Shown here piece after piece: positions 14,090-37,489 of a stretch of 64,000 nt of DNA (position 1 is its first letter; each line of letters starts with the position of its first letter). The DNA is from a virus. The notes beneath the pieces are model-generated. The model searched no databases. It saw nothing but the letters and a program-made list of their open reading frames with translations, and was not told the DNA's origin. Position numbers and translations under genes: made by a program. The DNA is taken from positions 1 to 64,000 of IMG/VR virus record IMGVR_UViG_3300048927_000250; one strand, 5' to 3'.

Positions 14090-14105
14090 TCACTACGGTA
14101 ATATA
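14090..14105 (-). promoter_or_regulatory. Early-type promoter TATATTAC-N4-GTGA
   Basis: Minus strand TATATTACCGTAGTGA, 29-44 bases before the ATG at 14061. It is one of five copies in the window with the same spacing. TATATTAC is the phiKZ early promoter core as I recall it, read by the virion RNA polymerase. Confidence 0.75.
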
Positions 14106-14162
14106 GTTCTTAAAATTGTTACGGGAGCCTCCGTGCCCCCGAACCACCGTAGTGTTACATGC

Positions 14163-14333
14163 TTAGATTTTGCAGGCACCACCCTCGCATTCATCGTCGC
14201 CAGGTTTGTACTCAACTTCCGGCGGACGGTCAGCTACTGCATCTGCATGGGCAGCCGCTTGCTCCAGGACCTCGTCCGGGAGGTTAAACTCACCGTCAAA
14301 CAAATCGTCATCTTTTTTGGCAGGTGTAGACAT
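14163..14333 (-). CDS. Small acidic hypothetical protein (56 residues)
   Basis: Starts MSTPAKKDDDLFDGEFNLPD and ends GDDECEGGACKI, strongly acidic, with a C-terminal Cys pair (C-x4-C). AGAGAAAAGG lies before the ATG at 14333. It lies in what would otherwise be a 340-base gap. Small acidic phage proteins often bind host enzymes or mimic DNA; that is speculation here. Confidence 0.6.
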   Translation of the reverse strand: MSTPAKKDDDLFDGEFNLPDEVLEQAAAHADAVADRPPEVEYKPGDDECEGGACKI

Positions 14334-14399
14334 AAGCCTTTTCTCTTCTGTGGTTATTCATCTAATAACAGGTCGACGTAAAAAAGGAATGAAATTTAA

Positions 14400-14912
14400 T
14401 CAACGTGCTTCCCCTTTCGGAGCGCGGATAATCTCAAACCCTGATTTATCAACGAACTGCGTGTATAGCGGGGATGCCGTTCCCATCACCAGATTTCGCT
14501 GGCTACGCAGGTGACTGTCCCCGACAATGAGCGCGACACGGCCTTTCGGGGCGTACTCGTTCAATGTTCTTACCATCTGGTGCTCACGGATGTTGAAACT
14601 GTATCGACAATCCAGGTAGCGACCGTCTGGCCACTTCCTATCCCGCTCGTAGGTCTTGTCATCCCAGTTGTCAATCCCAATGACCGGAATCCCCAACTCG
14701 ATACCCAACTTAAACGAACGGTCACTGATGCTGTACATCTGCCCTTTGATGGCTTGCTGTAAGGCTAACTTGCTCAGGTAGCGATACGGACCCGCCTCTT
14801 CGGTCAGAAGGTACTTAAACGGAGCTTCACGGTGAGCTTGCCGTATTAACCGTTCAATACGGTCGCGGTCATCTCGAGTGTGCATTTCCCCGTACAGAAT
14901 GTGGTTTGACAT
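14400..14912 (-). CDS. TraB/ChaN-like protein
   Basis: 170 residues from the ATG at 14912, with GGAG seven bases upstream (an earlier ATG at 15008 has none). Motifs: YGEMHTRDD at residues 7-15 (the G-E-x-H signature of the ChaN/TraB/EreA-like fold), LLTEEAGP near 45, IPVIGIDNWDD near 85 and IVGDSHLRSQ near 140 (G-D-x-H). Related proteins include haem-binding ChaN, erythromycin esterase-like enzymes and Tiki/TraB proteases. Catalysis is plausible since both motif histidines are kept, but the substrate is unknown. Confidence 0.55.
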   Translation of the reverse strand: MSNHILYGEMHTRDDRDRIERLIRQAHREAPFKYLLTEEAGPYRYLSKLALQQAIKGQMYSISDRSFKLGIELGIPVIGIDNWDDKTYERDRKWPDGRYLDCRYSFNIREHQMVRTLNEYAPKGRVALIVGDSHLRSQRNLVMGTASPLYTQFVDKSGFEIIRAPKGEAR

Positions 14913-15044
14913 GGCAAACTCCAGCGTAGTGAATGAGTACATATGGAACAGCTTAACCGTACCTTTTAACGAAGCGTTAGTTGGCCGAGTTTGTGGTGAT
15001 TTCGCCACCTAGTTGTGAGTAACCGCAACTAAAGGAAGCTAGAG

Positions 15045-15419
15045 ATGCCCCAGTACTCATTGCCAAATCCATCTATCACCTTCCTTTACGATAAGGAAAT
15101 GGTGCGCCTCAACGACACCTACGCCACACCGGAAATGATTGTACCAGCCGACTTCGAGTCAGATGGTAACAGCGCTCCTTGGTTTGCACGGGTCGTCTTC
15201 CCACGCTTTGGCCGTGACCTGCCTGCGTGTATTGTGCATGACTATTGCTACGGTGGCGCAATGCCGCGCAAGCAAGCGGACAAACTGCTCAAAAAGAACA
15301 TGAAGCGCTTAGGCTTCAAATGGTGGAAGTACCAGGTGATGTACTGGTCGGTTCGCATCGGCGGCCACTCCCACTATCAGCGTCGCCAAGTCGAGACCGG
15401 AAGAATGGCGGCCGTTTGA
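15045..15419 (+). CDS. DUF1353 family protein
   Basis: 124 residues, the only plus-strand gene between 8.4 and 23.9 kb. It carries the DUF1353 signature: VPADFESDGNSAPWFARVVF near residue 34, CIVHDYCYGG near 63, and QADKLLKKNMKRLG...MYWSVRIGG. The HDY and D-x-D/N-S residues look like a metal site. The family is common in phages and prophages near lysis or structural genes, with unproven function. AAAGGAAG lies before the start; a bidirectional terminator follows. Confidence 0.8.
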   Translation: MPQYSLPNPSITFLYDKEMVRLNDTYATPEMIVPADFESDGNSAPWFARVVFPRFGRDLPACIVHDYCYGGAMPRKQADKLLKKNMKRLGFKWWKYQVMYWSVRIGGHSHYQRRQVETGRMAAV

Positions 15420-15420
15420 C

Positions 15421-15455
15421 CAAAAAAAAAAGAGGGGGCGTCAGCTCCCTCTTTT
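15421..15455. terminator. Bidirectional terminator between convergent genes
   Basis: AGAGGGGGC-GTCA-GCTCCCTCT stem (one G-T pair), with TTTTAT after it on plus and a ten-base T run on minus. It serves the DUF1353 gene and the minus gene ending at 15463. Confidence 0.8.
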
Positions 15456-15462
15456 ATGCTGC

Positions 15463-15693
15463 CTATTCGAGCACCCGGTCAAGGGCGTACTCGAAGGCAT
15501 CGCTGATGGTACGGTTCATCCCGTCAATGCGGGACATGTTGGCTATGAACGCTTCGGTAGTTTGCTTACCGTCTACCGTATCGAGGACATTGCGTTCGAA
15601 TGCTTTCGATACCCCGATAGAGGCATCCTGGAGTTCCCGCACGGTTAACTTCGCGTAGTTCACCCCATCGTAATACAACTCGGTTCCACTCAT
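15463..15693 (-). CDS. Hypothetical protein
   Basis: 76 residues, helical, no family. ATGA overlap with the gene upstream. The segment YAKLTVRELQ...FERNVLDT resembles YGELTVKELT...EGQRLKT in the protein ending at 63010; the two may be distant relatives. Confidence 0.6.
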   Translation of the reverse strand: MSGTELYYDGVNYAKLTVRELQDASIGVSKAFERNVLDTVDGKQTTEAFIANMSRIDGMNRTISDAFEYALDRVLE

Positions 15694-15899
15694 GATTGCG
15701 CCCTCCGAAAAGCATCCTTTGCTCGGCTACTACGACCGACCGGGTCACAGTCCTCTTCCCCGACCATCTCTTCAACCCCCGCGTCCCGGTTTTCTTGTTC
15801 AGCATAACGCTGTGCCTTCTGGGTCTTCATTCGCTCGAAGTCTTCGCGGATTTTAACTTCATCTAAATTGTCAACAATGCTTTTTGCGAATCCTAACAT
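15690..15899 (-). CDS. Hypothetical protein
   Basis: 69 residues, highly charged and helical (KIREDFERMKTQKAQRYAEQ). The ATG at 15899 has CTACGGAG upstream, part of a leader (TAAACTACGGAG) repeated before three genes near 61-63 kb. A TATATTCT early-type element is at 15951-15966. Function unknown. Confidence 0.6.
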   Translation of the reverse strand: MLGFAKSIVDNLDEVKIREDFERMKTQKAQRYAEQENRDAGVEEMVGEEDCDPVGRSSRAKDAFRRAQS

Positions 15900-15950
15900 G
15901 ATTCAATCTCCGTAGTTTAATCAATAAGTTAAGGGGTTTAGTACCCTATG

Positions 15951-15966
15951 TCACCAAGAGAATATA
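15951..15966 (-). promoter_or_regulatory. Early-type promoter variant TATATTCT-N4-GTGA
   Basis: Minus strand TATATTCTCTTGGTGA, 52 bases before the gene starting at 15899. It keeps the spacing and the GTGA half of the other four copies, with two changes in the core. Confidence 0.6.
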
Positions 15967-15992
15967 TACCTGAAACCCAGTTAGACAGCATA

Positions 15993-16016
15993 CACGGGAG
16001 GGCGCACCCTCCCGTG
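15993..16016 (-). terminator. Perfect stem-loop after gene, possible terminator
   Basis: CACGGGAGGG-CGCA-CCCTCCCGTG, ten pairs, four bases behind the stop at 16021. No T run follows on the minus strand. The same hairpin with the same flank (CAGCATACACGGGAGGG) occurs at 39073-39094. Confidence 0.4.
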
Positions 16017-16020
16017 ACTT

Positions 16021-16332
16021 TTATGCTTTCTTGCTACGGTCCAGATAGGCTTTGATGCCCCAACACTTGTTGCGTGCCTTCATGAACGCGCCACGGATAC
16101 CGTCAGCATCAGTGTACATCGCATCATTCCGGGGACGAGCGTCGTCGGTTTCACTGTGCCCGTTATCCAGCGTCAGCGTACAACTGATGAGGGTAGTACC
16201 TGGCCAACGGAAGAACGCAGCCTGCTTAATCAACGTGTCCACATCGAAGTGAATCAGGTCGGGATAAGCGGCAAAGACGTGTTCTACATTGACTGGGGTA
16301 CCGTCGAGAGGGATGTTCATCTTCTGTTCCAT
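16021..16332 (-). CDS. Phage gp49/gp66-like small protein
   Basis: 103 residues; TAATG coupling to the upstream gene. The second half (SCTLTLDNGHSETDDARPRN..AFMKARNKCWGIKAYL) follows the pattern of the Phage_gp49_66 family: a leading beta hairpin with L-L-NG, then a helix containing A---A-----W and a final Y-L. These proteins are widespread in phages of Gram-negative bacteria and of unknown role. Assignment by eye. Confidence 0.5.
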   Translation of the reverse strand: MEQKMNIPLDGTPVNVEHVFAAYPDLIHFDVDTLIKQAAFFRWPGTTLISCTLTLDNGHSETDDARPRNDAMYTDADGIRGAFMKARNKCWGIKAYLDRSKKA

Positions 16333-16850
16333 TAGAGTTGACTCAGGTTGATGGTGGACTCTTTAACATAGAAGATGCGGATTTGCCATTGGTGAACATC
16401 AGCACGCAGGTTGGGGTCGTACTTCTCGTAACGGAGATTCACAGCCGCATTACCCCGCTGACTACCGTTCACCCTGATAGTTCCGTGAACTCCCGGTAAC
16501 TCCACCTCACCCTGGAACTTACGTAAGAACGAATCGGTGAACAGAATGTCCGTGTCTTCTTTAGGTACCCAGTGCTGACCGTTGGTGAACAACACCGACA
16601 CCAGTACCGCGCGGGTGACTTTAAGGTCCCCGTCAACATAATCGTTGAGGCGGTAGATTCGTTCAGGCGAAAGGTTGACACAATGGTTCCCTTCCGTCGT
16701 GGATTGTTTTAACGGTTCCACATTGACCGGAAATGTTTCCGTAGAGAGTTGCGCAATCTGTTGAGCCTTCTCATAATCGGACGCCAACTCACCTGCGAGA
16801 ATCTCTCGAACAGCCCCAAGGAATTGAGTTGCTGTTTCACCTGCTGACAT
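16332..16850 (-). CDS. Hypothetical protein
   Basis: 172 residues, AAAGGATAACGT before the ATG. Helical N-terminus, then beta-rich (GTIRVNGSQRGNAAVNLRYE, WQIRIFYVKESTINLSQL). No family recognised. Confidence 0.6.
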   Translation of the reverse strand: MSAGETATQFLGAVREILAGELASDYEKAQQIAQLSTETFPVNVEPLKQSTTEGNHCVNLSPERIYRLNDYVDGDLKVTRAVLVSVLFTNGQHWVPKEDTDILFTDSFLRKFQGEVELPGVHGTIRVNGSQRGNAAVNLRYEKYDPNLRADVHQWQIRIFYVKESTINLSQL

Positions 16851-17020
16851 ACGTTATCCTTTTCAACTGATAGCTTCAAACGGGTTACCCACGGGCGAAT
16901 AGAGTTACAGGAATCGCACTCGTAGGAGATTTGGTTGTAAAGTCCCCAATGGACCTTACGGATTTTATCCGACCGACATCCACAACAACGGTAGCGAATC
17001 TTCCCACCTTTACTTAGCAC
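16709..17020 (-). CDS. Zinc-finger protein with long 3' overlap
   Basis: 103 residues from GTG at 17020, seven bases behind GGAGG (an ATG at 17026 is too close). Residues 10-45 hold two Cys pairs (CCGC, then CDSC about 22 residues later), a zinc-ribbon pattern. The last 47 residues are out of frame with, and overlap, the next gene by 142 bases, and look less like protein (WRPIMRRLNRLRNSLRKHF). The functional part may be the N-terminal ribbon only. Role unknown. Confidence 0.5.
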   Translation of the reverse strand: MLSKGGKIRYRCCGCRSDKIRKVHWGLYNQISYECDSCNSIRPWVTRLKLSVEKDNVCQQVKQQLNSLGLFERFSQVSWRPIMRRLNRLRNSLRKHFRSMWNR

Positions 17021-17345
17021 GTGCATCCCTCCGCTCTTTACGGATGGTCAGAAGCTTGAGGAACTTCTCCTCGACCTCGGTCGATTTCACTTCCATTCTG
17101 GCGACTACCGCGTTCAGCCCTTCGAGCATGACATGGTATCGGGGGTGACATTTATTCAACTCGCGCATCTTCGCCCGTATTTCAACGGCACGTTCATTGA
17201 AGCGTAACAACGTACGGGAAGCGATGACCATTGCTTCATCAGACCATTCGTCTCGTGACATCAATGCCTGGGTCAACATCTCCAGACTGATATCTACGTG
17301 CTCAATGCGCCCGTAACGAGTAGGAAAATTGGATTTAGTAGTCAC
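17010..17345 (-). CDS. Hypothetical helical protein
   Basis: 111 residues from GTG at 17345 (GGGAG seven bases upstream; it overlaps the upstream stop by 11). Nearly all helical and basic at the end (EEKFLKLLTIRKERRDARAK). No family recognised. Confidence 0.6.
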   Translation of the reverse strand: MTTKSNFPTRYGRIEHVDISLEMLTQALMSRDEWSDEAMVIASRTLLRFNERAVEIRAKMRELNKCHPRYHVMLEGLNAVVARMEVKSTEVEEKFLKLLTIRKERRDARAK

Positions 17346-18051
17346 GGCGCGGCTCCCTTAGGTCGAACGAAAGTAGTGTCCCAAGGAATTTCCCGGAGAA
17401 TGTAGTGTCTTCCAGGTCGAGTGCGACATTACCGGTTTCCTGATTCAGTGACCCCTTAACGTTGAAAGGTTTTGCGTCCATATTACGGTACCGTAAAATC
17501 AACTCGCGGCGGTTTCCTTCCATAGGGAGCTGGAACCCGTTATACGGGCTATCGGAGACATCCAAGAACCGTTGACCGAGCGTCTCGACCAGCGTATCGT
17601 CCGATACCATGAACCCTTCTACTCGTGGGTTCTCGATAACGTAATCTCCGTGCGGGAGGTTCAGAATACCCAGTAAGTTGTAGGCTGCCCCAAACGTCAC
17701 AAAAGCCTTCTTCCTGGTTCCTCCGGCTAAGTCATACACCAACTTGTTTTTCTCAGTCCCAGTGACGATTTCTTCTGATGACAACAGGATTTGTTTCCCT
17801 GCCGTCACGGCTGCACGCCAGCCTTGTTCGCGAGCCTCTGCAACGATGTCGTTCAACATCTCTTCGGTGATGTCGCATTTCCGCAGGGCCTGAATGCTGT
17901 CAGCCTGCGTTTTGTTCAGCGCACGACTTACACCTTCCCGTGCAATGATGATACGCAATACGTCACTGCTACTAATCAAGTACATCGGGTCGTTCTTACT
18001 GCGTTCACCCAAGTCAGGGAAAGGGGAACCGTAGTTTACTGTCTTAGTCAT
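17335..18051 (-). CDS. Hypothetical protein
   Basis: 238 residues from the ATG at 18051 (GAGG upstream). Contains ALNKTQADSIQALRKCDITEEMLNDIVAEA, a helical segment, and a beta-rich C-terminal half (ELILRYRNMDAKPFNVKGSL). First gene of its unit with a TATG-like element 60-70 bases upstream. Not recognised. Confidence 0.6.
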   Translation of the reverse strand: MTKTVNYGSPFPDLGERSKNDPMYLISSSDVLRIIIAREGVSRALNKTQADSIQALRKCDITEEMLNDIVAEAREQGWRAAVTAGKQILLSSEEIVTGTEKNKLVYDLAGGTRKKAFVTFGAAYNLLGILNLPHGDYVIENPRVEGFMVSDDTLVETLGQRFLDVSDSPYNGFQLPMEGNRRELILRYRNMDAKPFNVKGSLNQETGNVALDLEDTTFSGKFLGTLLSFDLREPRRDY

Positions 18052-18113
18052 TTCACAAAACCTCATTTGGATTATTAAAACCGAAAACGGAAATAATCGG
18101 TAGATGGGAGTTA

Positions 18114-18123
18114 CTACATATAG
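18114..18123 (-). promoter_or_regulatory. Candidate TATG-type promoter element
   Basis: Minus strand CTATATGTAG between the stop of the gene at 18143 and the ATG at 18051. Similar to elements at 12715, 29049 and 58807. Confidence 0.35.
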
Positions 18124-18142
18124 CCTTCCGTGGCCGTAAGAA

Positions 18143-18634
18143 TTAACCCTGTGGTTGCGGGAGGTCCATCACGTTACAGCCCAACTGCTTCTGGATGTTC
18201 CAGAGGGTGTTCATGTAAACCCCCAGCCAGATTGGCCAGTCGTCGTGTTCGTAGATAGAACAGAAGTCTATCTTGAAGGTGCGCATGTTCACCCAGTGAC
18301 CGTGGGCCGCTAAAGACAACTCGCTCGCCTCCTCGGTATCAATGTCGGATGAACTGATTTCCAGGATGGTCCATTGATGCGTGTCGACAAACTGGTTTTC
18401 TGGGTTAGCGTTCCACGGCGAGATGACCACAAAGAACGACGGAATAAGCGCACTGGTCACTTTGAAATAACGCGCTGGGTTCCAGGCTTTCAATGCTTCC
18501 AGGTCGAATTGCTCACCCTCTTTAAGGTGTGGCATGACATTCCGTTCCCAGATGTATTCGTCAACGTCGATTAACGGTGCGAAGAAATCCTCGCGGGTGT
18601 ACTCCTGAATCGTTAAATCTAACTGCTTATCCAT
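18143..18634 (-). CDS. Hypothetical protein
   Basis: 163 residues, acidic, tryptophan-rich (YIWERNVMP, WPIWLGVYMNTLWNIQ). Possibly a cytosolic enzyme fold but no motif recognised. Preceded by a terminator, so a promoter should lie in 18635-18650, where I see none. Confidence 0.6.
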   Translation of the reverse strand: MDKQLDLTIQEYTREDFFAPLIDVDEYIWERNVMPHLKEGEQFDLEALKAWNPARYFKVTSALIPSFFVVISPWNANPENQFVDTHQWTILEISSSDIDTEEASELSLAAHGHWVNMRTFKIDFCSIYEHDDWPIWLGVYMNTLWNIQKQLGCNVMDLPQPQG

Positions 18635-18647
18635 TACAACTCCTTGA

Positions 18648-18687
18648 AAAATAAAAGAATAAAGGAAGGGACCGAAGTCCCTTCCTG
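18648..18687 (-). terminator. Minus-strand terminator with UUCG loop
   Basis: AGGAAGGGAC-TTCG-GTCCCTTCCT on the minus strand, followed by TTTATTCTTTTATTTT. It sits two bases behind the phoH stop. Confidence 0.85.
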
Positions 18688-18689
18688 GT

Positions 18690-19475
18690 TTAGTCGTGCT
18701 CGTAGGCGTTCAACACTTCCTGACAGAGCTCAGAGCGCACGCAGTCATCCTTCGTGAACTCTACAACCCCAATGCGGGACGTGGTACTGAAACGCTGTAA
18801 CGCGTCGGAAAGCCCACTTTGGACCCCTCTCGGTAAATCACACTGAGCCACGTCTCCGTTAACAATCACGGTCACGTTCTCACCCAGACGTGTCAGGAAC
18901 ATTTTCATCTGTGCCTTGGTTACGTTCTGGGCTTCGTCCAGGATAACTACCGCGTTCTCAAACGTGCGGCCGCGCATATACGCGAAGGGAGCAATTTCCA
19001 CCTTCTTCACATCCGGGCGCAAGCAGTACTGAAGGAAAGTACCACCAAGGCGTTTCTCCAGGATGTCTTGAACCGGGCGGAAATACGGGGCGAATTTCTC
19101 GCTGATGTCCCCAGGCAAGAAGCCCAGGTTCTCACCGGACTCTAAGACAGGGCGCGTCACGATGATGCGTTCTACCTCTTTATCCAGCAATGCTTTGGCC
19201 GCGTGCGCAGTTGACAGGAATGTTTTACCACAACCGGCTTCACCCGTTGCAAAGATTAATTGCTTCGTGTTCAGCTGCTCGAGGTAAAGTACCTGGTTTT
19301 CATTGCGCGCTTCGATGGGTGTATTGTCCCGTTTCACTTTGGGTGTCAGGTCGTCTGACACTTCAGTACCGGGAAATTGAACTACGGTATCATCACCGTA
19401 GCCTGAGTTAGCTCGTGCTCCCTTTCCGCGTTTGGACTTACGAGAACCGCGTTCAGCCTGTCTAGCTCTACTCAT
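18690..19475 (-). CDS. phoH: PhoH-like ATPase
   Basis: 261 residues. A basic low-complexity N-terminus (SRKSKRGKGARANS) is followed by the PhoH domain: QVLYLEQL and Walker A GEAGCGKT near residues 78-85, IIVTRP near 105, the MRGRTFENAVVILDEAQN block carrying Walker B near 165-182, and VNGDVAQCDLP, a sensor-like motif. PhoH proteins are P-loop ATPases, some with RNA helicase or RNase links, frequent in large phages and often induced in phosphate stress in hosts. The role in infection is unproven. Flanked by small membrane protein genes. Confidence 0.9.
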   Translation of the reverse strand: MSRARQAERGSRKSKRGKGARANSGYGDDTVVQFPGTEVSDDLTPKVKRDNTPIEARNENQVLYLEQLNTKQLIFATGEAGCGKTFLSTAHAAKALLDKEVERIIVTRPVLESGENLGFLPGDISEKFAPYFRPVQDILEKRLGGTFLQYCLRPDVKKVEIAPFAYMRGRTFENAVVILDEAQNVTKAQMKMFLTRLGENVTVIVNGDVAQCDLPRGVQSGLSDALQRFSTTSRIGVVEFTKDDCVRSELCQEVLNAYEHD

Positions 19476-19509
19476 GGGTTACACCTTTTCATGAGAACCG
19501 GGGAAGAGG

Positions 19510-19794
19510 TTATGGGACCTTAACGCTGTGTGGTTGCGCCAGGTCCTTATTACAATCCCCGAGGGTTTGCAGTGGAATGAGACCGCCCTGTGATGAGGAA
19601 AGGTATTGGCATCCAGTTACCATGTCCATCACCAACGTGAAACGGTCATCAGAAGTTTCCTTGACGATAAAGCGTCGTTCTGAAAGGGGTGGTCGGACAA
19701 AGTCGTGTATCGACCCGTAGATGAATTCCGTACACAACCCAAGTAGGAATGCCAGGAACACGGCGACAGGATACCGCCGGATAAAATTATACAT
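19510..19794 (-). CDS. Small membrane protein, DUF6440-like
   Basis: 94 residues from the ATG at 19794 (GAGG eight bases upstream). One N-terminal membrane segment (YPVAVFLAFLLGLCTEFIYG). The outer part contains MVTGCQYLSSSQGGLIPLQTLGDC, which resembles the DUF6440 pattern (D--TGV-YL---GGL-PL-D--G) seen in phage and Gram-positive proteins. Start overlaps the upstream stop. Confidence 0.55.
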   Translation of the reverse strand: MYNFIRRYPVAVFLAFLLGLCTEFIYGSIHDFVRPPLSERRFIVKETSDDRFTLVMDMVTGCQYLSSSQGGLIPLQTLGDCNKDLAQPHSVKVP

Positions 19795-20158
19795 CAATGC
19801 CATCCTCAGCTAAGTGGAAGTTCTTTAAGAACAACGATTCTTCTAATACCCAGATTTCACCAGCCGGACGGTCGTGTGTCGGCGTGGTGTTGGTAAAGAT
19901 AACCATGGGTAGCGAACAGTCCTGCGCATGTTTCCCTACTGCGAGCACTTTAAATGGCAATCCTGAAGGTGACCTTACTTCAAGTCCTGGAACGACCTCA
20001 CGGAGAAGAGTCTCCCCGTATCGTGCCAGACGTAAACGGTCAACAACGTCAAAGCGATTGACAGAGCAAATATGATGGCCAAGTTCATGAGACTGCTTGG
20101 CATCGGGTTCTTGCGGTATTTTCGAAAATCCCACAGGAGTCCTCCAAATGTAAACCAA
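19787..20158 (-). CDS. DUF1653-like small protein, start uncertain
   Basis: The stop is secure; the start is not. The longest form (GTG/ATG-type start at 20158, 123 residues) runs through almost the whole neighbouring gene at 19975-20181. A TTG at 19960 would give 57 residues. The recognisable part is VVPGLEVRSPSGLPFKVLAV..MVIFTNT..GEIWVLEESLFLKNF, similar to DUF1653 (PG-Y---G--Y-V----H----VVY---W-RP---F). The gene starting at 22211 carries the same kind of domain. Function of the family unknown. Confidence 0.4.
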   Translation of the reverse strand: MVYIWRTPVGFSKIPQEPDAKQSHELGHHICSVNRFDVVDRLRLARYGETLLREVVPGLEVRSPSGLPFKVLAVGKHAQDCSLPMVIFTNTTPTHDRPAGEIWVLEESLFLKNFHLAEDGIDV

Positions 20159-20181
20159 GCAATCAACGTTAAGTAGCCCAC
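19975..20181 (-). CDS. Small two-segment membrane protein
   Basis: 68 residues from GTG at 20181, six bases behind AAGGAGG, which is a far better start than an upstream one at 20274. Two hydrophobic segments (TLIAWFTFGGLLW and LAIIFALSIALTLLTVYVW) joined by a basic loop. Position among other small membrane genes suggests inner-membrane effects on the host or a holin-like role; neither is shown. Confidence 0.6.
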   Translation of the reverse strand: MGYLTLIAWFTFGGLLWDFRKYRKNPMPSSLMNLAIIFALSIALTLLTVYVWHDTGRLFSVRSFQDLK

Positions 20182-20222
20182 CTCTAACCTCCTTCGGTAC
20201 TTATTGCTCACACTAAGTGTAG

Positions 20223-20498
20223 TTAGAAGAGGACGATTACAGTAAGGATGACGCCCCAGTGCCAGCACCACCAACAGGCATCGGCTCTCGCCAATGACCG
20301 CTTAGGTGAATCCAACATGCAAATAAAACCAAACCCAATCAAGCCCGCCGACAACCCCGCCAGAATGTACATGCACTCTGACGTAGGGTGAAGCCAGTCG
20401 AGCAGCTGTTGCGAGAGTACCCAAGTACAAACCAGACCAAACAGGGTCTGGCGGATTGGACGAAACTCGCGCCAGAATTCATCTGTGCTGTACGACAT
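20223..20498 (-). CDS. Small membrane protein
   Basis: 91 residues from the ATG at 20498 (AAAGGAG eight bases upstream). Three hydrophobic segments (LFGLVCTWVLSQQLL, MYILAGLSAGLIGFGFICML, WWCWHWGVILTVIVLF). Unknown function. It could be holin-like by size, but there is no adjacent endolysin. Confidence 0.6.
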   Translation of the reverse strand: MSYSTDEFWREFRPIRQTLFGLVCTWVLSQQLLDWLHPTSECMYILAGLSAGLIGFGFICMLDSPKRSLARADACWWCWHWGVILTVIVLF

Positions 20499-20511
20499 CG
20501 CCCAATCTCCT

Positions 20512-21387
20512 TTAGTAAAGGTCTTCTGAGTACAAAGACGCTTCACGGGAACCGGTCTTCTCACGCCCTTCGAGCTGACCCGCAATCTTTGCAATCAGGT
20601 AAGCCTGTTCGCGATTGTGGTAGTCCCCGAATTGGTCGATGAACCCTTGGTCTTCGCCGATGGCGTGGTCGTTCTCCAGCAATTCACCTTTGCGTAGCGC
20701 ATTGAACAACGCGTGTGCATCCGGTGTACCGTGACGGGCACAAGGGACGGTTAGCTTGGTACCATCCTTCATCGTCGCACGGAACGCTGCTGCAACAATG
20801 GTACGCTGCACCACCACCCCATTCTCTTCCCACACCTTCCAGCATTCCGGCGGCAGTTCCCAATACGCCCGACCTTTATCACTGTAGATGTTGGTAGCCT
20901 GTTCACACTCACCGTGGAAATGGAAACGGAAGGTCACCACTTCAGTGGGCTGGAACAGGAGGAAATCTTTAAACACCTGAGCACTACCGATTAACCACGG
21001 CGTCAGAATGAACGACCCTGATTTCATGCTGCGCAGAACATCAGCCATTGGACCTGTGATGTGCAGGCGACCGTGGACACGAATGCGTCCTTCTGGCGTG
21101 TGTTCGATTTCGTGCAGGCGGACGGTAGCCCCGATGAACTGCCCTTCGAAACGATTAGGTTCCTTGATGTCCGGGGTAGTGAACGGTGGCATCTCCACGT
21201 AGAACGGCCCACGACGGTTTGCGTGTTTACGCAGTGCCAGTAAGAGATTGTTTTCACAATACTTCTTACCGTCCTTGTCAATGTCGTTCGGTGCCCAGTC
21301 CAGTAAGAGCACCTTGAAACCACCCGCGGTGGATTCTAACGGCAGTGTATTCACTGCCCCCAAGATAAAGTCTTTATTGTCTTTCAT
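20512..21387 (-). CDS. Two-domain phage protein of unknown function
   Basis: 291 residues. The C-terminal ~95 residues match a recurrent phage domain with AAAFRA..DG....V.CARHGTPDAHALF near 190-225, DQGFIDQFGDYHNREQAYLIAKIAGQL near 245-272 and an SEDLY end; in other phages this ends with LYSENLY. The N-terminal ~180 residues are beta-rich (GPFYVEMPPFTTPD, RIRVHGRLHITGPMADVL) and unrecognised. The protein looks like a fusion of that small domain with a second module. It lies behind an early-type promoter. Confidence 0.6.
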   Translation of the reverse strand: MKDNKDFILGAVNTLPLESTAGGFKVLLLDWAPNDIDKDGKKYCENNLLLALRKHANRRGPFYVEMPPFTTPDIKEPNRFEGQFIGATVRLHEIEHTPEGRIRVHGRLHITGPMADVLRSMKSGSFILTPWLIGSAQVFKDFLLFQPTEVVTFRFHFHGECEQATNIYSDKGRAYWELPPECWKVWEENGVVVQRTIVAAAFRATMKDGTKLTVPCARHGTPDAHALFNALRKGELLENDHAIGEDQGFIDQFGDYHNREQAYLIAKIAGQLEGREKTGSREASLYSEDLY

Positions 21388-21406
21388 TGTAAATCCTTGT
21401 TAAAGG

Positions 21407-21429
21407 TGGGTGAAGGTTATTGCTTCACC
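21407..21429 (-). other. Stem-loop in 5' leader
   Basis: GGGTGAAG-7-CTTCACCC, eight pairs, beginning inside the promoter element at 21425-21440. If transcription starts near its GTGA, the mRNA of the gene at 20512 would begin with this hairpin, which could protect the 5' end. Confidence 0.5.
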
Positions 21430-21440
21430 CGGGTAATATA
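21425..21440 (-). promoter_or_regulatory. Early-type promoter TATATTAC-N4-GTGA
   Basis: Minus strand TATATTACCCGGGTGA, 38 bases before the ATG at 21387. Perfect core and spacing. Confidence 0.75.
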
Positions 21441-21444
21441 GACT

Positions 21445-21900
21445 TTAGTCGGAGTTGATGGTGCCTGGTGCCCAGTACTGAAGGTGATACTCCAGTGACG
21501 CGATAGGAACCATGAAGTGGTCACGGAGCGCCACCAGTCGAGGATGAGTCACGTCTGTCCCCATCACACGGTCACGCATGACCGCCCAGCGCTCCATACA
21601 TTCCAGGAACGTCGATTCACCTTTAATCACATCGACGACTTCAGGGACACGGATTTCATCAACCCGTACACCCCGGTCGTCGTAAAGTGAAACACCCACA
21701 CCGACAGGATGCACCGGTGACATGAAGTTCCACATGTACTTCTCTTCGACGTTCTTCATCGGTTCGACGCACATCGAGTAGAAGTTACCCCAACCAGCCG
21801 GAGAGACGCCCTTGTTACGGATGCCCTCTAGCACGGTGGCCAGTTGGTAAATTGCGTAGCCAGCTTCGTACGCATCGAGAGAATGGTCACGTTGGTTCAT
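21445..21900 (-). CDS. Hypothetical protein
   Basis: 151 residues. Of two adjacent ATGs (21903, 21900) the second is better spaced from GGAGG. Overlaps the upstream stop. Helical, with several conserved-looking aromatic residues (WGNFYSMCVEPM, LEYHLQYWAPG). Not recognised. Confidence 0.6.
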   Translation of the reverse strand: MNQRDHSLDAYEAGYAIYQLATVLEGIRNKGVSPAGWGNFYSMCVEPMKNVEEKYMWNFMSPVHPVGVGVSLYDDRGVRVDEIRVPEVVDVIKGESTFLECMERWAVMRDRVMGTDVTHPRLVALRDHFMVPIASLEYHLQYWAPGTINSD

Positions 21901-22211
21901 CATGCCTCCAGTAAAGTGAATCGTTCGATGAAGTATTCAATCGGCTTCGACCAAATCTCCAACGGTTTGCCTTCCGGGTGGTAAACGACCTGTACGTCCC
22001 AGCCCGGTTTCGTGGCACGTAAGTTGGTCAGGAGATGAAGGACGTAAGTTCCACCGGTATCTTTACGATAGCGTCGTCCAACTTTGAGCCCACGCATCCT
22101 TTCTTCAATCGGGTCCACACGTTTCTCCTTCTTCTGACCTGGGTTCTTTTGCTCTTCCATGATTTCACGGATTAATGCATCCTGTTCCTCGCGGCTAAGT
22201 TCTCTACCCAT
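21900..22211 (-). CDS. DUF1653-like protein
   Basis: 103 residues. Charged helical N-terminus, then LKVGRRYRKDTGGTYVLHLLTNL...VQVVYHPEG...IWSKPIEYFIERFTLLE, following the DUF1653 pattern. Related in type to the C-terminal part of the gene ending at 19787. Function unknown. Confidence 0.55.
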   Translation of the reverse strand: MGRELSREEQDALIREIMEEQKNPGQKKEKRVDPIEERMRGLKVGRRYRKDTGGTYVLHLLTNLRATKPGWDVQVVYHPEGKPLEIWSKPIEYFIERFTLLEA

Positions 22212-22230
22212 TTTGGTTACTCGACGTTAG

Positions 22231-22668
22231 TTATTTCCCACTACCCAAAGTCTGGATATTTCGGGTCGATTCCATGATGGGGAGGTTACCTTCAGTCGGA
22301 ACGTAGATGACCTGGTTCTTAGTCTGCTGTAGACCGTCAACCCACAGGTAACGCAGATAGGCTTCGTTGTTCTTCAGACTGTTACCGATAATCTTGTTGG
22401 CTTCAGCCACCCCACCGGCTCGGATGATTTCTGCCTGCGCTAAGGCCGCCGCAGAATCTTTCTTCGCCTCAGCTTCCTGTACGGAAATCTGACGGTCCTG
22501 TGTTGCTTTCATCAGTGCAGCTTTACCTGCCATCCCTTGTTCCCAGACATTGTAGTAAGGGCAACCGGCCATGGAAAGGACGATGAAAGCCACAACGCCA
22601 ATAGCAGTACGCTTAGCGTTCTTCTTCACAAACGCCACAATAAAGTTTTCTTCGCCGTAACGAGACAT
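22231..22668 (-). CDS. SPFH/prohibitin-like membrane protein fragment
   Basis: 145 residues. An N-terminal membrane segment (TAIGVVAFIVLSMAGC, ending in a lipobox-like LSMAGC) is followed by a coiled-coil rich in Ala and Glu (VQEAEAKKDSAAALAQAEIIRAGG..EANKIIG) and a short conserved end (YLRYLWVDGLQQTKNQVIYVPTEG). This is the C-terminal signature of stomatin/HflC-type proteins without the full SPFH domain. Bacterial relatives regulate FtsH; the phage form might affect the membrane protease, which is inference. Confidence 0.6.
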   Translation of the reverse strand: MSRYGEENFIVAFVKKNAKRTAIGVVAFIVLSMAGCPYYNVWEQGMAGKAALMKATQDRQISVQEAEAKKDSAAALAQAEIIRAGGVAEANKIIGNSLKNNEAYLRYLWVDGLQQTKNQVIYVPTEGNLPIMESTRNIQTLGSGK

Positions 22669-27620: not shown

Positions 27621-27621
27621 C

Positions 27622-32317: not shown

Positions 32318-32319
32318 AA

Positions 32320-32784: not shown

Positions 32785-32797
32785 TGTAGCAACCTTC

Positions 32798-33247
32798 TTA
32801 TTCTGCTTTGATTAAACGGTTCAGGTGGAGTTCTACGTCCAGGGAGAATTCGTGGATGTCACTGCCGTCTTTACGGCGGTCTGTAGCAGCCTTATACATC
32901 TTGGTCGCTGCATCACGCGGCTCGAGCGGATATGACAGCGTACAGAAACGACGAATTTCAAGTTCCGCCAACACCACGCGTAGACGACCGTCTTCAAGGT
33001 CACTGAGGGATGGAATGAAGGTGTTCCATTCCTCGTTCTTGGTAATCAGCGCACGACGACCCAGTTCCCAACGTTGTGCCAACTTATTTTCTAAGATGTG
33101 CGTACGCCAGGTCTGGCGAAAATGATTGTAGTACAGATACCACGCGGTTTGCTCCGCACTGTGTCCCCAGTACCAGCCTTGTAGAATGGCGGAAACGTTT
33201 TGACGGAGAATCTGTTCGGACAACGTGATATTTGCTGGTAACGTCAT
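32798..33247 (-). CDS. Hypothetical protein, paralog of the one at 62433
   Basis: 149 residues from the ATG at 33247. Shares with the protein at 62433 the pattern ILQGWYWGHS..TAWYLYY (VLEGFYCGFT..AHYILYM), a central PSLSDLE (PSLGELE) and a C-terminal DGSDIHEFSLDVELHLNRLI (DGWEFNLFFEAVVLEAERLM). Helical. Family unnamed. Confidence 0.6.
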   Translation of the reverse strand: MTLPANITLSEQILRQNVSAILQGWYWGHSAEQTAWYLYYNHFRQTWRTHILENKLAQRWELGRRALITKNEEWNTFIPSLSDLEDGRLRVVLAELEIRRFCTLSYPLEPRDAATKMYKAATDRRKDGSDIHEFSLDVELHLNRLIKAE

Positions 33248-33257
33248 GTACAACCCC

Positions 33258-33497
33258 TTATTTAGAAAAGTTCGTGCGGTCTGTGCCGACGAACTGTACT
33301 GTAGTCTCAGCTTCGGAAAGCGTTGACGATGTTAAAGTTTGGATGCGGTGTGGGATATGTTCCTGATACGGTACCTCGTCAGATAACATCTCAAACGGGA
33401 AATGTACCAGGAAAGCCCAGACCACGAAAATAGACAGCACGCCAGCGCAAGCGCTGGCAGCTAAGAACACGAACAACTCTTTCAGGAACTTCTTCAT
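33258..33497 (-). CDS. Membrane-anchored small protein
   Basis: 79 residues. Strong N-terminal hydrophobic segment (FVFLAASACAGVLSIFVVWAFLV) after a short basic start (MKKFLKE), so an anchor or uncleaved signal, then a 45-residue polar tail. ATGA overlap with the Cys-rich gene upstream. Confidence 0.6.
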   Translation of the reverse strand: MKKFLKELFVFLAASACAGVLSIFVVWAFLVHFPFEMLSDEVPYQEHIPHRIQTLTSSTLSEAETTVQFVGTDRTNFSK

Positions 33498-33688
33498 TCT
33501 GCTCTTGGACCTTCCGCTAATCCGTCCAGAATAGAAAGGTCAGGGCGCACAGCGTTGTCACGACCCAGTGGTGTCAAGATATAAACGGACTTGCCGTCTT
33601 TATCAATGAAACCAGACTCATCGGCGATAAACGCCGCCGGTTCTTTTTTCCCTGTACACGCACAGGTTTTACATTTGCCACATGACAT
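33494..33688 (-). CDS. Cysteine-rich small protein
   Basis: 64 residues with MSCGKCKTCAC at the N-terminus (C-x2-C-x2-C-x-C), a likely metal-binding knuckle, followed by acidic and beta-rich segments. First gene behind the early-type promoter at 33736-33751. Confidence 0.6.
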   Translation of the reverse strand: MSCGKCKTCACTGKKEPAAFIADESGFIDKDGKSVYILTPLGRDNAVRPDLSILDGLAEGPRAE

Positions 33689-33722
33689 TTCTTTTTACCC
33701 TCCAATGAAAGAATTGGTTTTG

Positions 33723-33920
33723 CTAACTAGCAGATTCATCTAAGTAATATATTTCTGAGCCCCGATTAGAAAGCTCAGCAATATCCCCGTGACGACGACA
33801 GGTGTTCAGGTGTTCCTGGTCGTGGAACCCTGAGTTGAAACCTTCTTTACGACAAGTGCGGAGGTTCCGCACCTTTCGACCGTGCCGTTGTGCCTTCTGT
33901 AAACTCGCCCGGCTTGCCAT
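33723..33920 (-). CDS. Small basic protein
   Basis: 65 residues, arginine- and histidine-rich (MASRASLQKAQRHGRKVRNLRTCRKEG), likely nucleic-acid binding. Its last codons (EIYYLDE) are encoded by the promoter element TATATTACTTAGATGA, so the gene end and a promoter coincide. Confidence 0.5.
   Translation of the reverse strand: MASRASLQKAQRHGRKVRNLRTCRKEGFNSGFHDQEHLNTCRRHGDIAELSNRGSEIYYLDESAS
33736..33751 (-). promoter_or_regulatory. Early-type promoter TATATTAC-N4-ATGA, inside a gene end
   Basis: Minus strand TATATTACTTAGATGA, inside the 3' end of the small basic gene and 48 bases before the Cys-rich gene's ATG at 33688. Confidence 0.65.
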
Positions 33921-33923
33921 ACC

Positions 33924-34304
33924 CTAGACCTTCGCCCAGGTATTCTGGAACCCGCGTTCACTGGCGTCTTCTTCTCTGGCTTTCCAGACGCTCACATTGA
34001 ATTCATCGAGTTTATCCAGGATGGCCTGGGAGATGAGTTTACCGTCGGTGTGTTCTTCTAATGCAGTCCACCACACATCACCTTTATGGTCGCACATGCG
34101 CAAGGACAGCTTACGGATGTCGGGATACCAGGCGATGTCGTTGAACAGGTATTTGGTCCCGCGAACTTCGAGTTCCACGGCAAAGTTCTTAACCAGTAAC
34201 GTCGCGGCTGCTAATGCAACGTTCTCCGGGTCACTTTGATTAAGAATGGCAGTACGGCTTTTACCGCGTTGTGCAGTCATCTCGAGGTAATGTATCTTTT
34301 TCAT
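33924..34304 (-). CDS. Hypothetical protein
   Basis: 126 residues from MKKIHYLEMTAQRGKS at 34304; an upstream ATG at 34421 lies in front of the terminator and is not used. Contains VALAAATLLVKNFAVELEVRGTKYLF and a mixed C-terminus. Not recognised. Confidence 0.6.
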   Translation of the reverse strand: MKKIHYLEMTAQRGKSRTAILNQSDPENVALAAATLLVKNFAVELEVRGTKYLFNDIAWYPDIRKLSLRMCDHKGDVWWTALEEHTDGKLISQAILDKLDEFNVSVWKAREEDASERGFQNTWAKV

Positions 34305-34381
34305 AACGTGGCTTCCGTTGTTAATCCAGATTGAACATTGCGATGACGTCAGTGTCGTCGCCTCATAGAAACCGATGAAAC

Positions 34382-34407
34382 AAAAAAAGAAGGGGACCGA
34401 AGTCCCC
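34382..34407 (-). terminator. Minus-strand terminator with UUCG loop
   Basis: GGGGAC-TTCG-GTCCCC on the minus strand followed by TTCTTTTTTTG. The 280 bases 34305-34585 otherwise hold no clear gene. Confidence 0.8.
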
Positions 34408-34585
34408 AAGAGGTTCGTCATGATACCGGGTAAATCCTCGTAGGAAATCCCGTTTATTATCCTGTCTATTTTTCGAATGTCTTCGGAACGCCAGAGCCAA
34501 CTTTACACGTGTTGTGGATGGATTGGTTAGTGTTTCACATTACTACTTCGGTGCGTGAATTATAACCACCCACCGAGGTTGCTCG

Positions 34586-34984
34586 TTAGCAGGTGATTTC
34601 CCCGCCGTAATAAAACGCGATACCTTCGCTTCGACAAATCTTTTCCAGAATGTCGACCAGTAAGTGACGATGGCAAAAATCACCGTCACGACAGTAACAC
34701 GCTAACGCTACCCGTCCGTTACGGATTAAACGTAACCAAGGTTCCGGGTCACGGCGAAAGCGTTGACGACACAAGCGGTAGAAACGTTCAACGTACTCCG
34801 CCTCTGTCAGATGACCACACTTATACGCCCACAGAAGCTCTGTGGACGGCGCGAAGACTTTGTCCCCACTCTTGACTGTCGTGTCCAGAAACTCGACGTC
34901 CGTGCGGTGCAGTAAGCGGTGTTTTGCGATTTGAATCGTAAAGCATTCAAACGCTTTCTCTCTATACGACCAGACCATACGCAC
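34586..34984 (-). CDS. DUF488-like protein
   Basis: 132 residues. Contains VALACYCRDGDFCHRHLLVDIL near 90-115, the C-x-C-x4-FCHR signature of DUF488-type proteins, and LTEAEYVERFYRLC, the usual Y----Y helix before it. The family is common in bacteria and phages; some members sit with DNA modification genes. A TGTATGTA element lies just upstream. Confidence 0.65.
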   Translation of the reverse strand: MRMVWSYREKAFECFTIQIAKHRLLHRTDVEFLDTTVKSGDKVFAPSTELLWAYKCGHLTEAEYVERFYRLCRQRFRRDPEPWLRLIRNGRVALACYCRDGDFCHRHLLVDILEKICRSEGIAFYYGGEITC

Positions 34985-35029
34985 CTTCTATTAATTCAGT
35001 CCCTCTAATACATACAGTTACGGTGCAGA

Positions 35030-35064
35030 ATAAAAAATAACTAGGGGAACCCGAAGGCTCCCCC
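35030..35064 (-). terminator. Minus-strand terminator with UUCG loop
   Basis: GGGGAGCC-TTCG-GGTTCCCC followed by TAGTTATTTTTTATT, behind the gene ending at 35070. Confidence 0.85.
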
Positions 35065-35069
35065 AGGTA

Positions 35070-35612
35070 TCAATAAACTTTCAACAGATGACGTGCAACT
35101 GCAACGTTAGTCCGCACATGCTGCAAACGGATACCGTACTCTTCCAACTCGGCTTTCACCTCATCGTAAGGGAACGACTGCACTACCGGTTGCCCAGAGA
35201 ATTTCGGGAAGACGATATAGTGCACGAGTTTGTGGACTTTATCATACACCGCTGCGCCACCGGCCGTTGGGTTACGAGTCAGTGCTGTGAACGTGTCTCG
35301 GTGAGAGAACTTGCGTTCAACGCTACCTGCGCTGGTCGGTTTCGCCCGAGTGAAGTCACCCGATTCAAGACGCGCCAGAGAACTCCGCTGAATCTGAAGT
35401 TCCTCGAGGTCATCAGACACCGGCTGGAAGGTGATGATGGAATGCGCATGTTCACGCCACTGGGTGATAGTCGCGCCGTACTTCGCACGCAAGAAATCAC
35501 TGAGGCGTTTCACTTTCAACCAACCCTCGATGTGACTCGACGGTAGTCCGTTGCGCAAATCGACCAGAATCATACGGGCTTGGTTCTGGCGTTGTAAATC
35601 GTTCTTTGCCAT
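35070..35612 (-). CDS. Hypothetical protein
   Basis: 180 residues, basic, mixed fold (SDFLRAKYGATITQWREHAHSI, VHYIVFPKFSGQPVVQSFPYDEV). Possibly nucleic-acid binding. Not recognised. Confidence 0.6.
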   Translation of the reverse strand: MAKNDLQRQNQARMILVDLRNGLPSSHIEGWLKVKRLSDFLRAKYGATITQWREHAHSIITFQPVSDDLEELQIQRSSLARLESGDFTRAKPTSAGSVERKFSHRDTFTALTRNPTAGGAAVYDKVHKLVHYIVFPKFSGQPVVQSFPYDEVKAELEEYGIRLQHVRTNVAVARHLLKVY

Positions 35613-35624
35613 GTCTTCGGTTCC

Positions 35625-36182
35625 TTAGACTAAACCTAACAGCGAAGTTAACCCAGCGTGTTGTTCGCTTGGGATGTGAACAACCCGTTTTGTGATGACT
35701 TTGCGTAACCCTTCAGAAGCATCACCCAACGAGCCCATACACCCAGAACGAACCGCAGTCCAGGTGTCTAAGCGCACCACCAAGAGGCGATGCGTATTTT
35801 CAATCGGTCCGCAACGTTCAAGGTAAACTGCAACCTGAACATCCTGGCCGTGAGAATCACGAAGTTGACCTCCCTCGTACGTCAGGTCATCGAACAGCAA
35901 TCTGAGCCACCCTTCACGATGCCGCTTGAAGTAGTGATACAGTAACTGGTCAGTAGACACCTGAAGCAGTTGGTGTAGGTCAATTGCTCTGCGCAGAACT
36001 AAGGAAATCTTCACCCCGGCACGTATGGTCTTTACGTTTACGCCGAAGTGTTTCTCGATTATGTTGCCCATCCCAGAGCGCGAGAATTTGAACCTTTCCG
36101 CCATAGCTTCCAGTGACTCCCCTTTGCGCAACGCCACAACGATGTCACGCATTTCGGGTAGGCTCAATATACGACCACTCAT
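35625..36182 (-). CDS. Helix-turn-helix protein
   Basis: 185 residues from the ATG at 36182. Residues 4-45 (LSLPEMRDIVVALRKGESLEAMAERFKFSRSGMGNIIEKHFG) form a clear helix-turn-helix (helices around MRDIVVALRKG and ESLEAMAERF-SRSGMGNIIEK). The remaining 140 residues are unassigned. A DNA-binding regulator of phage or host transcription is likely. Terminator at 36202-36237 just upstream. Confidence 0.65.
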   Translation of the reverse strand: MSGRILSLPEMRDIVVALRKGESLEAMAERFKFSRSGMGNIIEKHFGVNVKTIRAGVKISLVLRRAIDLHQLLQVSTDQLLYHYFKRHREGWLRLLFDDLTYEGGQLRDSHGQDVQVAVYLERCGPIENTHRLLVVRLDTWTAVRSGCMGSLGDASEGLRKVITKRVVHIPSEQHAGLTSLLGLV

Positions 36183-36201
36183 CTCAGTTTCCAGATTTGT
36201 A

Positions 36202-36237
36202 CAAAAAAAGAAAGCCATCAATAACGTGATGACTTTC
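36202..36237 (-). terminator. Minus-strand terminator
   Basis: GAAAGTCATCA/TGATGGCTTTC (one G-T pair) followed by TTTTTTTGT, between the gene ending at 36288 and the regulator gene. Confidence 0.75.
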
Positions 36238-36287
36238 AGGAGGTTGCCCCCTAACCTTCAGGGACAATGACGTTTTCACAGAATAGG

Positions 36288-36830
36288 TTATACCTGACCG
36301 AGTTTAATCGGGCGGGTTTCGAGACGGTCGGTCTTTTGCGCCAGGCGACGCTTGATGTATTCTTCCAGCAGCGGGTCCATGCGCGTACCCATCAGGTGCA
36401 GGGCACGTACGATTGCCAGCCAGCGGTTGGTATCTTTAATGGTCGCATCCAGGCCGTCCAGATGCAGTTCAACTTCGTAATGACCTTTCACGCGGCGTAC
36501 ACGGTACTTCTGCGAACGCAGCAGGTTTTCAGCCACTTGTTCGTTCAGCGCGTAACCACGCGGAGGTTGTAGACCGCCACCTGACATCAGGCTGTAGGTC
36601 AGCATAGCCAGTTTCTGACGGTCGGCATAATCGTCGTGTAACTTGGCCATTTGTTTCGCGTCGAGACGAACACCGTTCGCATCGAACATGTTAGGGTATT
36701 GCAGGTCAACTTCCACGAAGGAGTCGAGTTTGACACCTTTCTGGATTTCCGCTTTGACGGCGTCATCGAGATTGATGCTTTCTTTGATTTGTTCGTCGAC
36801 AAATGCTTCTTGCTCTGCGTTCAACGTCAT
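36288..36830 (-). CDS. Hypothetical protein
   Basis: 180 residues from the ATG at 36830 (MTLNAEQEAFVDEQIKESIN). Acidic helical N-terminus, mixed C-terminal half (HYEVELHLDGLDATIKDTNRWLAIVRALHLMG). Not recognised. Transcribed behind the early promoter at 37474 with the gene at 36897. Confidence 0.6.
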   Translation of the reverse strand: MTLNAEQEAFVDEQIKESINLDDAVKAEIQKGVKLDSFVEVDLQYPNMFDANGVRLDAKQMAKLHDDYADRQKLAMLTYSLMSGGGLQPPRGYALNEQVAENLLRSQKYRVRRVKGHYEVELHLDGLDATIKDTNRWLAIVRALHLMGTRMDPLLEEYIKRRLAQKTDRLETRPIKLGQV

Positions 36831-36865
36831 GTTTAATTTTACCTTTATCGGTGTTTCCAGAGATT

Positions 36866-36885
36866 GGGGGTGATGACTCACCCCC
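36866..36885 (-). other. Stem-loop between genes
   Basis: GGGGGTGA/TCACCCCC, eight pairs with a four-base loop, 12 bases behind the stop at 36897. No T run, so a processing or partial termination site rather than a full terminator. Confidence 0.5.
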
Positions 36886-36896
36886 GACTTGAGTTG

Positions 36897-37355
36897 TTAG
36901 TCGACCAGCTTACGGAAGCGTTCGGTCAGCGCAGTGCGCACGTCGTTATGCTCTTTGTGCTCAAAGCGACGCAGTACCATGCTCATGGCAGCAGACTTCG
37001 GCTTACCTTGCGCATCCATACCCTGCGGACGGTTGAAGTTCACCGCCAGCTCATCGTGACCGATTTTCACTACGCCAGCAACGCGTTTGATGTCTGGGTT
37101 TTCCGCCAGGAAGTCACCAGCCTTTTCACCGGCAACGTGGAATAGCGCGGTGCCGTATTCACTGGTGTACTGCTGCGTATCGAGGATGTTAGCTTCGCTC
37201 AGCTTGTCCGCCGGACGAGACGCCAGGAAGTTGGTTTCTGCTACTTCCAGTTTACCTTCACTGTTGATGCCAACATCTGGGCTAATTTTGTTAGCCAGTT
37301 CTACCAGGTCGTTAGAGAGAGCAACGTCAGCGGTTTTGTTTTCTACTTGAGACAT
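36897..37355 (-). CDS. Hypothetical protein behind strong early promoter
   Basis: 152 residues, soluble, charged (MSQVENKTADVALSNDLVELANKISPD). No family. Preceded by a 120-base leader with two stem-loops and one of the five early-type promoters, so probably abundant early in infection. Confidence 0.65.
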   Translation of the reverse strand: MSQVENKTADVALSNDLVELANKISPDVGINSEGKLEVAETNFLASRPADKLSEANILDTQQYTSEYGTALFHVAGEKAGDFLAENPDIKRVAGVVKIGHDELAVNFNRPQGMDAQGKPKSAAMSMVLRRFEHKEHNDVRTALTERFRKLVD

Positions 37356-37473
37356 GGAATGTTCCTTGAGTGTCTTGGGTTTTATTAGCGGGGATATCTT
37401 CGAAGGTATACCCCCACAGAGTGGGTTGGATGCGTAGAATTTAAACTACGCATTCGGTTTCATGAACTACTGT
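37356..37473 (-). promoter_or_regulatory. Structured 5' leader
   Basis: The 118 bases between promoter and ATG at 37355 contain TGCGTAG/CTACGCA with an eight-base loop (about 37430-37451) and GGGG-TATC-TTCGAA-GGTA-CCCC (about 37391-37415). They could control stability or translation of this one mRNA. Confidence 0.4.
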
Positions 37474-37489
37474 TCACCTAAGTAATGTA
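37474..37489 (-). promoter_or_regulatory. Early-type promoter TACATTAC-N4-GTGA
   Basis: Minus strand TACATTACTTAGGTGA, preceded by TA. 13 bases behind the stop at 37504, 119 bases before the ATG at 37355. Confidence 0.65.

Follow-up and report, generated by a model that had tools for sequence, protein, structure and literature searches.

Probable early promoters of the phiKZ type in a jumbo phage genome, with a possible hairpin at the start of their transcripts

The window analysed here, a stretch of 64,000 nucleotides (bases 1-64000 of a 215,418-bp virus record), contains five minus-strand elements that are very probably early promoters of phiKZ-type jumbo phages, read by the multisubunit RNA polymerase packaged in the virion. 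The original prediction had proposed such promoters, and a core match to phiKZ, the strand, the gene context and conservation all favor this probable assignment. Sequence, spacing, strand, context, conservation and covariation were computed, and from these we infer, for the source phage, that the virion polymerase recognizes the sites, that they act early, and at which exact base transcription starts. The promoter is known in kind and the source phage adds another case; the newer part is a hairpin at the 5' end of the transcripts. We see about an even chance that the early promoter of many nucleus-forming phages is a composite, consisting of a ~38-bp promoter and a 5'-terminal hairpin at +1 whose pairing, rather than its sequence, is maintained, and that in the SPN3US lineage the hairpin is tied to one of two core classes.

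The large RNA polymerase gene of the source phage is 98% identical to its counterpart in Erwinia phage PhiEaH1 (Iapetusvirus), and the alignment of the two genomes spans nearly their full length, mostly at 95-99% identity. Because PhiEaH1 carries a nuclear shell protein, a PhuZ tubulin and many RNA polymerase subunits, the source phage is taken to be a nucleus-forming phiKZ-type jumbo phage. Both multisubunit RNA polymerases, virion and non-virion, are encoded as homologs of phiKZ genes; those present include gp178, gp180, gp176, gp149 and gp080, and also gp055, gp068, gp071 and gp074. No intermediate relatives were found in scans of IMG/VR.

All five 16-mers lie exactly where they had been predicted, and the two core variants, TATATTCT at 15951 and TACATTAC at 37474, were confirmed (Table 1). 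Measured from the predicted start base (G+1) to the next start codon preceded by a Shine-Dalgarno sequence, the distances to the genes are 30, 53, 39, 49, and 120 bases, close to the proposed 25-120. The leader of promoter 2, AGGGTACTAAACCCC, is also present at a site at genome position 66739. A loose form of the pattern, allowing up to two mismatches, gives nine matches in the window vs. 4.2 expected; the four further matches lie dispersed and without the flanks, so that by itself the loose pattern reaches only modest significance.

Table 1. Predicted promoters, transcript hairpins and associated genes in the window
Feature	Position	Strand	Description
Early promoter 1	14090..14127	-	-36 to +2; core TATATTAC 14098-14105; predicted start G+1 14091
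Gene of promoter 1	13486..14061	-	191 aa; start codon at +30; possible CPxCG zinc finger, below Pfam cut-off
Predicted hairpin near 5' end, transcript 1	14069..14089	-	+3 to +23, CTGCT..AGCAG
Early promoter 2	15951..15988	-	variant core TATATTCT; predicted G+1 15952
Gene of promoter 2	15690..15899	-	69 aa; start codon at +53
Early promoter 3	21425..21462	-	core TATATTAC 21433-21440; predicted G+1 21426
Predicted 5'-terminal hairpin, transcript 3	21412..21426	-	GAAG..CTTC
Gene of promoter 3	20512..21387	-	291 aa; phrog_839 (unknown function); start codon at +39
Early promoter 4	33736..33773	-	core TATATTAC 33744-33751; predicted G+1 33737
Gene of promoter 4	33494..33688	-	64 aa; start codon at +49
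Early promoter 5	37474..37511	-	variant core TACATTAC; predicted G+1 37475
Predicted 5'-terminal hairpin, transcript 5	37464..37475	-	GAAC-agta-GTTC
Gene of promoter 5	36897..37355	-	152 aa; phrog_9746 (unknown function); start codon at +120
Homolog of phiKZ gp176	40620..41345	-	
Virion RNA polymerase subunit, homolog of phiKZ gp178	43120..47634	-	presumed promoter reader; no early promoter nearby
Virion RNA polymerase subunit, homolog of phiKZ gp180	47642..49270	-	

Genome-wide the number of clear copies is 18, and every one of them lies on the minus strand. With a 56-bp weight matrix these sites score 30-52, against a maximum of 14.3 in ten Markov-random sequences; low-scoring sites at 71563, 129863, and 184809, apparent chance matches with poor cores, and a doubtful one at 192782 were excluded from the set. 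Because the matrix seeds had included TGA itself, the test was rerun using the bare 8-base core. The exact core TATATTAC occurs ten times in the genome, nine times on the minus strand and once on the plus strand: T-1, G+1, and A+2 stand at fixed spacing in 9/9 minus-strand copies, and all three are absent from the lone plus-strand copy. In the 18 sites the core occupies positions -14 to -7, and each site has an AT-rich conserved core near -10, as do the early promoters of phiKZ-type virion polymerases, in which it spans about 10 nt. Upstream of it, A-29 (18/18), T-21 (16/18), A-19 (17/18), and G-17 (15/18) are conserved; these flanks played no part in seed choice and are therefore largely independent evidence. 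The consensus reads, 5' to 3', A(-29)-N7-T(-21)-N-A(-19)-R-G-T-M-TATATTAC-N4-R-T-G(+1)-A. The element had been described as 16 bases long, a length that is too short, as conserved bases extend upstream to about -32; among them A-29, T-21, and A-19 hardly vary. Its supposedly fixed RTGA half holds in three of the four bases: T-1, G+1, and A+2 are each found in 18/18 sites, and R-2 is a mere preference (15/18, with T at three sites).

In AR9, the early consensus AAATATATATTAT-(6N)-G+1 was mapped by differential RNA-seq, and the same study states that in phiKZ and phiR1-37, too, a conserved start lies 6 nt downstream of the element (PMC5312081). All 18 sites of the source phage have G at this AR9-type position, 6 nt after the core, which makes it the predicted start base. 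The suggestion that RTGA marks the start while lying outside the known description was thus right as to the start site but not new, since its G is the start base already published (PMC5312081). The strength of T-1, A+2 and the upstream half may likewise be visible in published logos, and no novelty is claimed for it. In AR9 one site a single base off the consensus was unused (PMC5312081), so not every copy need be active.

Enrichment upstream of genes, which the original prediction had set as a check, is present genome-wide. On the PhiEaH1 annotation 16/18 sites are intergenic, vs. 6.9% of the genome, and each of these lies 27-151 nt upstream of a gene. The remaining two overlap annotated genes, gp164 and gp184, only because the annotation begins both genes at the GTG of the promoter itself. 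One site precedes the homologs of phiKZ gp071 and gp074 (non-virion polymerase), another the homolog of gp068 (the fifth, sigma-like subunit of that polymerase), and another the homologs of gp054 (shell protein) and gp055 (a further non-virion polymerase subunit). According to a review, chmA and the non-virion polymerase belong to the first genes that the virion polymerase transcribes (PMC12908238). Virion-polymerase genes, a group to which phiKZ gp176 belongs as a component of the virion enzyme (PMC7618050), have no same-strand site in the 3.8 kb upstream of them in 7/7 relatives, and structural genes have no close site in these seven. In the same relatives a site lies within 300 nt of 16/23 orthologs of the first genes vs. 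6/482 other genes, implying that placement relative to genes is conserved, beyond sequence alone. Placement at early operons for the non-virion polymerase and shell protein, and not at virion-polymerase or structural genes, is that of phiKZ-type promoters.

De novo matrices for eleven other phages called 23-40 sites per genome, on a single strand in each and outscoring the best opposite-strand score; for VP4B and ZPAH34, low scorers were removed from the site sets. A-29, T-21, A-19, T-1, and G+1 are common across phages, and the core drifts by lineage, being mostly GATATTAT in SPN3US and Stratton, TACATTAC in Ea35-70, and TATATCAC in FBKp24. Verbatim copies of TATATTAC-N4-RTGA number 13 in 201phi2-1, 6 in SPN3US, 5 in Eowyn, 3 in Totoro, and 1 in Ea35-70, and are confined to one strand in each of these phages and in phiKZ, whose 10 copies bear out the proposed identity of the core with that of the phiKZ early promoter; AR9 and FBKp24 have none. 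According to a review, early promoters of the phiKZ-type group vary between phages; experimental maps exist for few of these phages. The layout that 12 phages have in common, from about -32 to +2, would turn the genome sequence of any relative into a map of early genes, including host-takeover genes and the second polymerase, and would provide defined templates for the study of the virion polymerase.

In about 9/12 related phages there is a tendency for early transcripts to start with a hairpin at +1, and no earlier report of a 5' hairpin on early transcripts was found. Many early leaders of SPN3US start with a stem (GAGAGTT..AACTCTC, GATAGA..TCTATC, GAGCGTTA..TAACGCT). When 26-nt windows were folded and compared with dinucleotide shuffles, a stability dip appeared at the start site of the source phage (-1.6 kcal/mol, p 1.3e-4), SPN3US (-2.4 kcal/mol, p 8e-4), and Ea35-70, Totoro, and FBKp24 (about -1.5 kcal/mol, p 0.003-0.006); the same comparison gave no dip at the start site in phiKZ, 201phi2-1, and Eowyn. 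Four genomes were added afterwards, with p values of 0.043 (Stratton), 0.028 (Noxifer), 0.017 (ZPAH34), and 0.064 (VP4B). The signal is confined to about the first 26 nt, and an initial folding of the source phage with 45-nt windows and simple shuffles gave a weak signal (mean z -0.7).

Pairing was further compared after the downstream arm had been exchanged between transcripts of one phage. This arm swap was used in place of leader-by-leader covariation between SPN3US and Stratton, for which the automatic matching of orthologous leaders was unreliable and in at least one case plainly wrong. The exchange lowers pairing across all phages (z 6.7, vs. 0.9 in a control 20 bases downstream), and weakly so in the source phage alone (p 0.045). 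That the stems differ while pairing is kept points to selection on structure. Strong stems are present at 14/15 sites with a T-initial core vs. 5/31 with a G-initial core in SPN3US and Stratton, where T-initial cores are the minority and bear nearly all strong 5' hairpins, although leader length may confound this link because many GATATTAT leaders look short.

It is unlikely that the hairpin stands outside the promoter unit as a product of chance, of base composition or of the conserved bases. Such an origin would agree with the source phage, where a 5'-anchored hairpin is found in only 10/18 leaders vs. 35% of shuffled leaders, with the three phages that lack the hairpin, and with the fact that the idea was formed after the data had been seen. 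However, in eight phages pooled, the dip is restricted to windows starting near +1 when set against dinucleotide shuffles (p = 2.8e-6), it recurs in the genomes added later, and exchanging arms within a phage breaks the pairing far more at the 5' end than 20 bases downstream. As part of the composite promoter, the hairpin might shield the earliest messages against 5'-dependent decay, 5'-end protection being the ordinary guess, or help in their release from the template; if either is true, it would form an extra layer in the first minutes of infection.

Two candidate correlates of the hairpin were rejected. By tblastn, the RNase E inhibitor Dip is found only in phiKZ among the genomes compared, so that 201phi2-1 lacks both Dip and the hairpin. 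Enterobacterial hosts do not account for its distribution either, the hairpin being absent in Eowyn (Klebsiella) and present in Noxifer (Pseudomonas fluorescens) and ZPAH34 (Aeromonas).

In the proposed mechanism, the virion RNA polymerase would enter the cell with the DNA and read a bipartite site of ~38 bp, made up of an upstream half (A-29, T-21, A-19, with G-17 preferred) and the core TATATTAC at -14 to -7. Transcription would begin at the invariant G of T-1 G+1 A+2, and the 18 copies on one strand would turn on early operons, including those for non-virion polymerase subunits, the sigma-like subunit, and the shell protein, through which infection would pass to the second polymerase. The transcript would then fold into a hairpin from its first bases, a tendency in the source phage that is stronger in several relatives.

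Other readings of the element are far less probable. That TATATT is the -10 box of Erwinia RNA polymerase, and the sites host sigma-70 promoters, is very improbable: the core is AT-rich, TATAAT-like, and centered near -10, but the hexamer at -12 to -7 reads TATTAC or a variant of it, position -7 being C or T, and the column counts hold no TTGACA-like -35 block, which a sigma-70 promoter would have 16-18 nt before its TATAAT-like box (the conserved upstream bases being A-29, T-21, and A-19). A sigma-70 scan of 13000-22500 reported 0/3 minus-strand sites there, the element is common to phages whose hosts differ widely, and relatives are independent of rifampicin (PMC13282480). Late or middle promoters of the non-virion polymerase are hardly to be expected either, for although the phiKZ late start motif TATG+1 likewise ends in T-1 G+1 (PMC7598289), T-3 is present in 0/18 sites and A-2 in 3/18, unlike T-3 A-2 T-1 G+1, and the sites precede genes of the non-virion polymerase itself, not structural genes. 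The reading of RTGA as the start codon (ATG/GTG) of leaderless genes, as PhiEaH1 gp164 and gp184 are annotated, was rejected with little doubt, because most frames close at once (within 14 codons at 14/18 sites), three sites have TTG instead of RTG, a Shine-Dalgarno-preceded start lies at +27 to +151 in 17/18 sites, and other phages retain T-1 G+1 even where no frame follows.

The elements of the source phage, read as probable virion-polymerase promoters, resemble those of phiKZ in the core TATATTAC, T-1 G+1 at equal spacing, A-29, T-21, A-19, and their single strand. They differ in that A+2 is weaker in phiKZ (15/33 exact cores vs. 9/9 in the source phage), T-32 is stronger there, and phiKZ leaders lack the 5' hairpin. 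For phiKZ, 28 early promoters have been reported (PMC13282480) and 40 sites were called by the matrix; part of the called set may thus be weak, inactive or used at other stages. AR9 shares the AT-rich core followed by six bases and a G start, and A at -19 (PMC5312081); in contrast, its core ends in T, not C, the AT-rich stretch extends further upstream, and its sites lie on both strands. The predicted sites of SPN3US (Seoulvirus) and Stratton (Erskinevirus) have the same one-strand layout and T-1 G+1 A+2, but most carry a different core, GATATTAT.

The three predicted early promoters with the variant core TATATTCT (Table) share more than the core itself, as the leader, the 5' stretch of the predicted early transcript, is AGGGTACTAAACCCC or a relative of it in all three and a small stem is found from ~+6. 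Promoter and leader together look like a duplicated cassette.

Positions of the features discussed
Feature	Position	Strand	Remark
TATATTCT-core promoter	window 15951-15966
TATATTCT-core promoters	genome 66739, 191616		core first base
TTTATGC	window 8353, 15453, 16020, 28862	+
TTTATGC	window 28836	-
PhiEaH1 gp164	135991-136410		annotated start is the promoter's GTG
PhiEaH1 gp184	150888-151358		annotated start is the promoter's GTG
Non-virion polymerase gene (PhiEaH1 gp008)	L018:12957-15251 = genome 156957-159251

The true starts of gp164 and gp184 are probably ATGs preceded by Shine-Dalgarno sequences, ~50 nt downstream of the annotated GTG. Codon 253 of the gp008 homologue, a gene of the RNA polymerase made after infection, is an in-frame TAG in this record and GAG in PhiEaH1; it sits inside a substitution cluster, and a sequencing or assembly error seems likeliest.

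The heptamer TTTATGC also occurs elsewhere in the genome, outside the window. A GC-rich hairpin lies directly 5' of 11/13 (+) and 4/8 (-) occurrences, against a background of 8%, and the heptamer following a hairpin is probably a terminator tail. Alternatively, it may be a late promoter adjoining the terminator, a reading consistent with the presence within it of TATG, the phiKZ late start motif. No enrichment of TTTATGC was found in SPN3US, VP4B (+), ZPAH34, or AR9, and enrichment was also seen in the phages Ea35-70, Noxifer, 201phi2-1, Eowyn, and phiKZ.
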